DNA of 64,000 nt. Origin: Natronorubrum sediminis (GTDB lineage: Archaea; Halobacteriota; Halobacteria; Halobacteriales; Natrialbaceae). This document shows, in pieces, positions 13,806-17,682 of the stretch; positions within the stretch are counted from its first letter, which is position 1; each line of letters begins with the position of its first letter. The notes below the pieces were generated by a model. That model was not told where the DNA came from. It did no database searches and worked only from the letters and a program-made list of their open reading frames with translations. The DNA lies in contig NZ_FNWL01000001.1 of NCBI RefSeq assembly GCF_900108095.1, positions 558,001 to 622,000 on the forward strand, in the 5' to 3' direction. Made by a program: the position numbers and the translations under genes.

Positions 13806-14705
13806 TCAGGCCTCGAGGATCTCGTCTTCGTCGTCCTCGGGGACGAGCATCGAGCCGTCGAGCACCGTCACGCCGCGGCCACCGACGCGGACGGAATCGC
13901 CGACACGGACACGGGCCCGTCCCGGGCGGTCGACGTAGTGGCCCTGCTCGAGGCGGAGTTCCTCGGGAAAGTCATCGTCGAACGCGCCGAAGTGGTCGAG
14001 ATAGGCACCGACTGCGCCGCTTGCGGTCCCGGTGACCGGATCCTCTGGCACTCCCGCTCCGGGTGCGAACATCCTCCCGTGAAGCGTCGACTCGCGCTCG
14101 AGGGCGTCGAAGGTAAAGAGGTAGACGCCCGTCGCGTCGACGTCGTCGGTCAGTTTCTCGATCGCGTGCATATCTGGTTGCGCATTGCCGACGTCCGAGA
14201 GGTACGTGATCGGCGCGATCAAGAAGGACAGGCCGGTCGAGGAGACGGCGAGGGGAATGTCGTCGCTCGCCCCCTCGAGTGCGGCCTGATCCACTCCGAG
14301 CGCGTCGGCGACGCGGGCGTAGCCGACGTCCGCTTCCCGGACCTGCGGTGCGTCCTGCGTCATCCAGACCGTTCCGTCGTCGTCGACGTCGATCTCGAGG
14401 GTCCCGACGTTCGTCTCGAGCGTCGTCGTCCCGGACTCGAGGCCCTCGTCGCGAAGGTGTGCGAAGCTACCGATCGTCGCGTGTCCACAGAGGTCGACCT
14501 CCTGGGTCGGCGTAAAGTAACGAACGCGACGGTCTGCGCCGTCGCTCGAGCGAAGGAAGGCTGTCTCGCTGAGGGCCATCTCGGCGGCGATCGATTGCAT
14601 CTGGTGTTCGGAGAGGTCGTCCGCCTCGGGCACGACGCCGGCGGGGTTGCCGCCGAACGGTTCGTCTGTGAAGGCGTCGACTTGCAGGACCCGAATCGTA
14701 TCCAT
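13806..14705 (-). CDS. PhzF-family isomerase/epimerase
   Basis: A 299-residue PhzF-fold protein. From the ATG MDTIRVLQVDAFTDEPF, the characteristic GGNPAGVV follows, then the active-site-like SETAFL with the acid Glu, DLCGHATIGS and GTASGAVGAYL. These are the duplicated diaminopimelate-epimerase-fold half-domains. Family members isomerise small metabolites, but most have no known substrate. It stands alone and converges on the regulator gene. Start at 14705 chosen over 14759, whose extra 18 residues are not family-like. Confidence 0.87.
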   Translation of the reverse strand: MDTIRVLQVDAFTDEPFGGNPAGVVPEADDLSEHQMQSIAAEMALSETAFLRSSDGADRRVRYFTPTQEVDLCGHATIGSFAHLRDEGLESGTTTLETNVGTLEIDVDDDGTVWMTQDAPQVREADVGYARVADALGVDQAALEGASDDIPLAVSSTGLSFLIAPITYLSDVGNAQPDMHAIEKLTDDVDATGVYLFTFDALERESTLHGRMFAPGAGVPEDPVTGTASGAVGAYLDHFGAFDDDFPEELRLEQGHYVDRPGRARVRVGDSVRVGGRGVTVLDGSMLVPEDDEDEILEA

Positions 14706-14798
14706 ATCACGTTCGTGGACCGAACGGGGTATGAATCCTCTGCCCTCCACACGGACCACTGCTGTCGCTATCGGTGCTTGCCACTCCCAGTGACCCCG

Positions 14799-16142
14799 TC
14801 AGTATAGATCCTGAACCCACGTGGCGATATCGTCGACGACCCGTTCGTCGACGTTGTTCCGAAGATCGTACTCCATCGGCGTCGCTGGCCCTTCCCCAGG
14901 CATAAACGCGCGATTGAGATCCTCGTACACCGCCGTTTCTGACTCGGTATCCTCGAGTTCGCTCTCCCACCGCTCGAGGTCGTCCTCGACGGTCGCTCGC
15001 GTATCACGCTCACCCTGCAGGAAGTACGTTGGAAGTTCGAGCGACGCAGCGGTCTCGACGTGGTCGTAGTCCTCGAGGCTCTCCCAGAGCGAGCCGTAGT
15101 AGCCACAGACGGGCTCGTCCGCGTCGTAGTCGCCGTCTTCGATTCGCTCGACGTCTGCTTCCCACTCTTCGTACTGATCCATGCGGGCTTCCCACTCGTG
15201 ATCGCCCACGGTCGCCTGGTGTTCGATCTGCTCGAGGGTGACCTCGTAGAACGGTCGTGCCGGGGCAGCGAGGCCGACGATTCCGGCGAGGTCGCCGTCT
15301 TCGTCGGCGATCCGTGGTGCAGCGAGACCGCCGAATCCGTGACCGACGACGACGATTTCGTCCGAATCGACGCCGTCTGCATCCCGAAGTTCGTCGATCG
15401 CAGTCAGTGCGTCGTCGACCGCGACGGTATCGATTCCGTGGTCGTCGGGGTCGACGTCGCATTCGGCCAGTCGGCTGTCGTAACGAATCGTCGCGATACC
15501 CTGGCTGGCGAGGCCTTCAGCGAGGTCGCCGAACAGTTTCGTCGCGGTGGTATCGCTGTCCATCGACACCTGCCCAGCATCGTGAACCAACACGACGCCG
15601 GGAACGTCATCTCCATCTTCGGGCATCGTGACGAGCCCTGAGAGTTCACACTCGTCGTCGTCGGTCTCGAGCGTGACCTCCTCGTCCGTGATCGCAGCGG
15701 CATCGACGTACCCCGGGCGTTCGTACTCGTCTGCGGGCGCGTACTCGCCGTACTCGTACTCGTCGTTCATCGCGAACAACAGATCGTGTGACCCGTGTTC
15801 GAACGACATCGAAATGCGGACGTTGTAGACGCCGTCCTGTTTGTCAGCCGCCGTCGAGTCGACGCCTTCGAACTCGCCACCGATGGCCGTGTACCCCATC
15901 CAGGCTTGCTCGAGTTGTGCGAGCGTCGCGATATCGTCGCGCATTTCGGGGATGAACTCCTCGCGAGCGTCTTCGAACTCGCCGTCTGCCAGTGTTTCGA
16001 CGAACGTTGCTGCTGCGTCTTCAGCCGCGCTCGTGTCTCCGTCGTCACTATCGTCTGCGAGCAGGCCGCTACAGCCGGCGAGGGCCGAAACGGTTGCAGT
16101 CGAGACAGCCGTCAACACGGTACGCCGTTGGAAGGAAGCCAT
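14799..16142 (-). CDS. Tat lipoprotein, DUF3887-like plus alpha/beta-hydrolase fold, catalytic triad lost
   Basis: A 447-residue exported lipoprotein. The N-terminus has an RR motif (FQRRTVLTAV) and lipobox LAGC. Residues about 40-130 resemble DUF3887 (small NTF2-like accessory domain). Residues about 155-445 form an alpha/beta hydrolase. At the nucleophile elbow, where GHSxGG is expected, the sequence is GHGFGG (Gly near residue 269). The oxyanion loop reads VHDAG, and the usual His in the LNHxF region is Arg (DLNRAF, near 411). Asp in GERD remains. It is probably not a hydrolase but a binding protein. Neighbours give no clue. Confidence 0.8.
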   Translation of the reverse strand: MASFQRRTVLTAVSTATVSALAGCSGLLADDSDDGDTSAAEDAAATFVETLADGEFEDAREEFIPEMRDDIATLAQLEQAWMGYTAIGGEFEGVDSTAADKQDGVYNVRISMSFEHGSHDLLFAMNDEYEYGEYAPADEYERPGYVDAAAITDEEVTLETDDDECELSGLVTMPEDGDDVPGVVLVHDAGQVSMDSDTTATKLFGDLAEGLASQGIATIRYDSRLAECDVDPDDHGIDTVAVDDALTAIDELRDADGVDSDEIVVVGHGFGGLAAPRIADEDGDLAGIVGLAAPARPFYEVTLEQIEHQATVGDHEWEARMDQYEEWEADVERIEDGDYDADEPVCGYYGSLWESLEDYDHVETAASLELPTYFLQGERDTRATVEDDLERWESELEDTESETAVYEDLNRAFMPGEGPATPMEYDLRNNVDERVVDDIATWVQDLY

Positions 16143-16218: not shown

Positions 16219-17682
16219 TTAGTCGTCGCCAGTGGATTCGACCGAGGACGCATCACCGCCGTCGAGCGGTGAAAACCGTCCCAGTTCGTGTGCGCCGACC
16301 GGCGGTCGATTCACGTCGGCAGCGGCGGACTCCTCGAGATCGGTCGTCGACTCGAGACCCGACATCGTCCCGTCGTCTCGAGGCTGGTCAGCCGACGCTG
16401 GCGCTCGAGCGTCCTGGTCGATCCGCATCGAGCAGAACTCGACGCCGCACATCGAGCAAAAGCGAGCCTCCTTGTAGTTGTCCTCGGGCAGCGTCTGATC
16501 GTGGTATTCGCGGGCGCGCTCGGTGTCGAGGGCGAGGCGGAACTGCTCGCGCCAGTCGAAGGTGTAGCGGGCTTCCGAGAGGGCGTCGTCCCAGTCTCGA
16601 GCGCCCGGACGTTCGTTCGCCACGTCGCCGGCGTGGGCGGCGATTCGGTAGGCCGCGAGACCGTCGCGCACGTCTGCTTCCTCGGGCAATCCGAGGTGTT
16701 CTTTCGGGGTGACGTAACAGAGCATCGCCGCCCCCGCCTGTGCGGCCATCGCGGCACCGATGGAACTGGTGATGTGATCGTAGCCCGGCGCGATGTCGGT
16801 GACGAGCGGGCCGAGGACGTAAAACGGCGCGCCGTCACAGACCTCTTGCTGGCGTTCGACGTTTTCGGCGACTTTGTGCATGGGAACGTGTCCGGGCCCT
16901 TCGACCATCACCTGTACGTCGTGATCCCAGGCGCGACGGGTTAACTCACCGAGCGTATCGAGTTCGGCGTATTGGGCTTCGTCGCAGGCGTCGGCCAGAC
17001 ACCCCGGTCGGAGACTGTCTCCGAGGCTGAACGTCACGTCGTGTTCCACGAAAATCTCACAGATTTCGTCGTAGACCTGGAACAGTGGGTTCTGCTCGCC
17101 GTGGGCTTCCATCCACGCGGCCATGATCGACCCGCCTCGAGAGACGATGCCTGTCTTCCGGTCGTTGGTCAACGGCAAGTGCTTTGCCAGGATTCCCGCG
17201 TGGATCGTCATGTAGTCGACGCCCTGCTCGGCCTGCGCTTCGATCACCTCGAGCAACAGGTCCGTCGTGATGGCCTCCGGATCACCCGCCCGCTTGACGG
17301 CCTCGTACAGCGGCACTGTCCCGAGGGGGACGGGCGAGTGTTCGACGTGGACTCCACGGATCTCCTCGAGGTCGCTGCCGGTGCCGAGATCCATCACCGT
17401 ATCCGCGCCGTAGTGAACCGCCGTGTGGAGCTTCTCGAGTTCGGTCTCGAGGTCGCTCGTCGTGTCGCTGTTGCCGATGTTCGCATTGACTTTCGTCGCG
17501 AACTCGCGGCCGATGATCATCGGATCGAGCGCCTCGTGGTGTCGGTTCGCCGGGATCACTGCCTGCCCGCTTGCGACTTGCTCCCGGACGAACTCCGGAT
17601 CGCGGTTCTCGCGTTCGGCGATTCGGGTCATTGCGTCGGTCACGGTTCCGTCGCGGGCGGCCTCGAGTTGTGTTCGCGCCAT
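16219..17682 (-). CDS. thiC: Phosphomethylpyrimidine synthase ThiC
   Basis: A 487-residue radical-SAM-type ThiC, which rearranges AIR into the thiamine pyrimidine (HMP-P). It has the family stretches [34 protein letters not shown] and the C-terminal iron-sulfur motif CSMCGVEFC. After the cysteines, about 60 residues of acidic, low-complexity tail follow, which is unusual for the bacterial enzyme but common in haloarchaeal proteins. Transcribed alone on the minus strand. No TPP riboswitch motif is visible upstream, so control would be by a protein. Confidence 0.95.

Follow-up and report, generated by a model that had tools for sequence, protein, structure and literature searches.

The locus and its product

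The window, the whole stretch of 64,000 nucleotides from Natronorubrum sediminis analysed here, carries on its minus strand an open reading frame running from 16142 to 14799, which encodes 447 amino acids followed by a stop codon. The gene, its neighbours and the features of its product are the following:

14799..16142, minus strand: whole gene, Tat-exported lipoprotein with a DUF3887 domain and an alpha/beta-hydrolase domain (EstD-like), 447 aa
16071..16142, minus strand: twin-arginine signal peptide and lipobox, residues 1-24 (from sequence)
15756..16013, minus strand: DUF3887 domain, residues 44-129 (Pfam PF13026, E 4.3e-9)
14802..15689, minus strand: alpha/beta-hydrolase domain, residues about 152-447 (Pfam, AlphaFold2 model, PDB matches)
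15579..15581, minus strand: Asp188 (VHDAG, residues 186-190), in place of the oxyanion-loop Gly of VHGSG
15336..15338, minus strand: Gly269 (GHGFGG, residues 267-272; codon GGA), in place of the nucleophile Ser
15003..15005, minus strand: Asp380 (GERDT, residues 377-381), acid of the former triad, retained
14910..14912, minus strand: Arg411 (LNRAF, residues 409-413; codon CGC), in place of the catalytic His
16219..17682, minus strand: thiC, upstream neighbour in a conserved slot (Pfam PF01964, synteny)
13806..14759, minus strand: PhzF-like gene, downstream neighbour in the conserved slot (Pfam PF02567, synteny)

The N-terminus of the lipoprotein, MASFQRRTVLTAVSTATVSALAGC, contains twin arginines at positions 6 and 7 and the lipobox LAGC with Cys24; Arg6, Arg7 and Cys24 are unchanged across 18 relatives. 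Given the Tat signal and the lipobox, the protein is presumably lipid-anchored at the cell surface. Both Pfam matches, DUF3887 and Abhydrolase_6 (residues 183-393, E 3.1e-7), exceed their curated cut-offs.

Active-site residues and predicted structure

An earlier, sequence-only reading of this DNA had pointed to three departures from an alpha/beta-hydrolase active site, namely a nucleophile elbow GHGFGG, an Arg in NRAF at the usual His position and an oxyanion loop VHDAG. All three are borne out: Gly269 stands where Ser is expected, Arg411 occupies the His position and Asp188 replaces the oxyanion Gly. The loss of the triad is nevertheless partial, since Ser and His are gone while its third member, Asp380, is retained and is invariant in both the Gly-type and the Ser-type rows of the alignment.

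The structure prediction that this reading had called for gives a confident AlphaFold2 model (mean pLDDT 92.4, pTM 0.89), in which the hydrolase fold is predicted to be intact. Its secondary-structure elements match closely those of the model of a Ser-bearing orthologue from Natrinema gari (pLDDT 91.5). Among PDB matches, the hydrolase domain is nearest in fold to PET46, feruloyl esterases and a thermophilic lipase, the best match having a VIA-align Z of 27.0 and an rmsd of 2.9 over 249 residues. A side feature of the domain is the pair Cys165 and Cys228, found in 31/31 Gly forms and 21/31 Ser forms, which is likely to be a disulfide in the exported lipoprotein.

Distribution of the Gly and Ser forms

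Orthologues were sampled by whole-genome searches of the genus, the family and the order, together with a scan of named genomes. At E <= 1e-30 the lipoprotein family occurs in 53 of 125 genomes of the taxonomic family of the window species and in 111 of 392 genomes of the order. In the alignment, Gly occupies the nucleophile position in 31 distinct orthologues from four Natrialbaceae genera, distributed as follows:

Window species, its 92%-identical sister and Natronorubrum bangense (65% identical): 3 Gly rows
Natrinema: 24 Gly rows
Natronococcus: 3 Gly rows
One further genus (G070): 1 Gly row

The oxyanion loop changes together with the nucleophile. It reads HD in 30 of the 31 Gly rows and HG in each of the 31 Ser rows of the tree; the exception is the Gly row of Natrinema zhouii (L099), with VHG and not VHD. 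From outside the family, 43 more relatives were read from DNA (47 rows, four of which repeat known ones), and all 43 have Ser. In Natronococcus and G070 the His beside the nucleophile is lost too (GLGxGG).

The other two triad positions behave differently. Asp380 is present in 31/31 Gly rows and His411 in 29/31, Arg411 being confined to the window species and its 92%-identical sister; every other row aligned at this position has His. The codon change is CAC or CAT to CGC. Natronorubrum bangense has GHG, yet its His is present; as it and all other Gly rows retain His, the His-to-Arg replacement is the last step. The protein of the sister, a different species, has the same residues at the active-site positions. 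Of the two features that were to be looked for in orthologues, the Gly of GHG is common to 31 of them, and the Arg of NRA is found in the window protein and its sister only. The refutation envisaged at the outset, orthologues with Ser and His and merely recent substitutions here, fails because Ser is replaced by Gly in 31 orthologues of four genera. Judged from these alignments, the loss of Ser is old and fixed, and that of His is recent and common to two species.

The number of origins of the Gly form was approached with trees built with the motif columns left out. The best trees require two to three nucleophile changes, because Natrinema gari, with Ser and HG, groups with Natronorubrum (support 97/91 in one tree and 87/86 in another) and Natronococcus branches separately. 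A single Gly clade nevertheless survives AU tests (p 0.129 and p 0.055), so that the number of origins lies between one and three. The association of HD with Gly accordingly comprises few independent events (two to three pairs), too few for a sign test to reach 0.05.

Gene slot and gene absence

In Natrialbaceae the gene order phosphoribosyltransferase, thiC, lipoprotein, phzF is kept for Ser and Gly forms alike, and Gly forms adjoin thiC and/or phzF wherever the flanks were inspected. This common slot indicates orthology, not paralogy, between the two forms. Since, in addition, the window's genome contains no second full-length match to the lipoprotein, confusion with a paralogue, an active copy being encoded elsewhere, is ruled out. 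A search of Rfam gave no match to a riboswitch near thiC.

Of ten Natronorubrum species, seven (L216-L219 and L221-L223) cleanly lack the gene, and in these thiC directly adjoins phzF across an intergenic space of about 30-150 bp. Sampled Natronorubrum have either the Gly form or no gene, and the Ser form occurs in none of them. In one Natrinema genome (G118, L063:4773-6114) the orthologue is split across two reading frames and is apparently broken. Together, the seven absences and the broken copy indicate that the gene is dispensable.

Natrinema gari (L095/L076) is the sole sampled Natrinema with the Ser/HG form. Its gene, which occupies the same slot but is separated from thiC by about 2.5 kb of additional DNA, represents either a transfer or a retained ancestral allele.

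Selection and remodelling

Purifying selection is visible in Nei-Gojobori estimates of dN/dS. The window protein compared with its sister gives 0.11 overall and 0.09 in the hydrolase domain, other Gly pairs 0.19-0.42 and Ser pairs 0.24-0.35. These comparable ranges indicate that Gly forms are about as constrained as Ser forms. The earlier statement that the gene is intact and not a decayed pseudogene is upheld for the window, where an open frame, Tat signal, lipobox and DUF3887 domain coincide with purifying selection.

At about 67 positions conserved elsewhere, Gly forms of Natronorubrum and Natronococcus show 7-10 deviations versus 1-5 in the nearest Ser forms, those of the window protein including K223S, V383A and H411R; the Natrinema Gly forms checked show 0-3 deviations at 50 conserved positions. 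Taken with the dN/dS values, this pattern indicates that the old site is being remodelled in some lineages and the protein as a whole retained.

Comparison with known systems

The best named family for the window protein is that of EstD from Thermotoga maritima (bacterial lipolytic family X, NCBIfam NF041096). The NF041096 profile matches residues 39-445, N-terminal domain included (E 7.8e-68), and also matches 18/18 aligned relatives. With 229 bits against an equivalog cut-off of 600, the window protein is a full-length relative of EstD and not an equivalog. Characterised EstD has the elbow GHSLG, and the serine reagent PMSF abolishes 96% of its activity (PMC6622161). Ser, HG and His of EstD correspond to GHG, HD and Arg in the window protein; thus both the serine of GxSxG and the catalytic His are missing and Asp380 is present. 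The closest folds in the PDB, feruloyl esterases and PET46 (7WWH, 7Z2U, 8B4U; Z 25-27, rmsd about 3 Å over about 250 residues), are active serine hydrolases that lack DUF3887 and are 14-23% identical to the window protein.

Among known pseudoenzymes of the hydrolase fold, animal proteins such as NDRG and the neuroligins are the best described (PMC7022630). NDRG proteins (Pfam Ndr; NDRG2, 2XMS; NDRG3, 6L4H) share the alpha/beta-hydrolase fold with the window protein, and where it reads VHDAG and GHGFGG, the solved chains of NDRG2 and NDRG3 have YHDVG/YHDIG and GVGAGA. NDRG3 has been described as non-enzymatic, none of its triad residues being left (PMC7022630). NDRG proteins are eukaryotic and have neither DUF3887 nor a bacterial-type lipid anchor. 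Sequence homology between the two was not detected: hhalign gives a probability of 0.2%, and 18 members have no Ndr match in Pfam at E 0.1. Membership of the NDRG family is therefore rejected, and the likeness of the elbows rests on motif and place in the fold. The occurrence of the same two substitutions in this distant non-enzymatic branch is a lead to, not proof of, a mechanical link between them.

A probable conserved pseudoenzyme and rival readings

With a probability of about 0.66, the locus encodes a conserved pseudoenzyme, that is, a surface lipoprotein whose ancestor was an EstD-type esterase and which has lost serine-hydrolase chemistry and reuses the pocket for binding. The features expected of an alpha/beta-hydrolase pseudoenzyme are found here, namely a fold predicted to be intact and a loss of the nucleophile conserved in 31 orthologues. 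As read from the active-site residues, serine-hydrolase activity has very probably been lost; granted that loss, a role in binding is the probable outcome. The earlier reading, which proposed a surface binding protein or other chemistry, is supported to this extent.

The path read from the sequences is as follows. In one ancestor of these Natrialbaceae, or in two to three parallel lineages, the nucleophile Ser became Gly together with the change of the oxyanion Gly to Asp. This first stage retained the acid and His; His gave way to Arg later, before the window species and its sister diverged, with frame, export signal and gene slot maintained by purifying selection. Asp188 may occupy the volume once taken up by the side chain of Ser and form a pair with residue 411 (His, or Arg in the window species), turning the former active-site pocket into a putative non-covalent binding site. 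The surface protein would then bind or sense a ligand of ester-like or polar nature, or else a partner protein, without cleaving it.

The persistence of His411 and Asp380 in Gly relatives leaves room for residual chemistry, as an inert fold would not need them. The Gly clade might still consist of enzymes with non-serine chemistry, in which Asp188, His411 and Asp380 form a general acid-base site for reactions such as water activation, elimination or isomerisation. The appearance of Asp188 with the loss of Ser in 30/31 rows, the invariance of Asp380, the retention of His411 in 29/31 and the many residues conserved within the Gly clade all speak for such a site. However, the window protein and its sister lack His, Arg being the sole partner left, the Natrinema zhouii row has Gly without the Asp, and within the Gly clade the hydrolase domain has gained no new invariant Ser or Thr, nor any Cys beyond the old pair. 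On balance, an acid-base enzyme is improbable.

Less probable again is an inactivated gene that is heading for loss and is retained by chance. The seven Natronorubrum genomes in which thiC and phzF are adjacent, the frame-broken Natrinema copy and the raised deviation counts of Natronorubrum and Natronococcus Gly forms are what such decay would leave. Against it, frames are open in four genera, dN/dS values of 0.11-0.42 are not above those of Ser forms, the checked Natrinema Gly forms hardly deviate, and export signal and lipobox are intact. Finally, sequencing error or drift in a single strain, in favour of which nothing was found, is rejected because the 92%-identical protein comes from an independent genome and the Ser-to-Gly change recurs in 31 distinct sequences.

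Significance

It is tempting to propose, as a speculation with the odds against it, that the pair of changes (oxyanion Gly to Asp, nucleophile Ser to Gly) is a repeatable route from alpha/beta-hydrolase to binding protein, with Asp taking the vacated site. Haloarchaeal surface lipoproteins would have followed this route two to three times, and the NDRG proteins of eukaryotes would have followed it independently of them. A limited literature search found no published description of this Gly-form clade. Close relatives display a graded loss in one gene slot, from Ser/HG through Gly/HD with His and Gly/HD with Arg to absence of the gene. The clade could serve to examine what takes the place of catalysis and whether the two substitutions are a general switch. 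The names ‘esterase’ or ‘hydrolase’, given by family match, are probably functionally wrong for about 30 haloarchaeal species.

One observation concerns Natronorubrum bangense, in which the lipoprotein and its neighbours, from a MATE gene to acetyl-CoA synthetase, are found both on the chromosome (L093) and on plasmid unnamed1 (L094). The two copies have the same positions and identities, and the lipoprotein itself is identical in both; either a large segment has been duplicated between chromosome and plasmid, or the assembly is at fault here (contamination value 13%).
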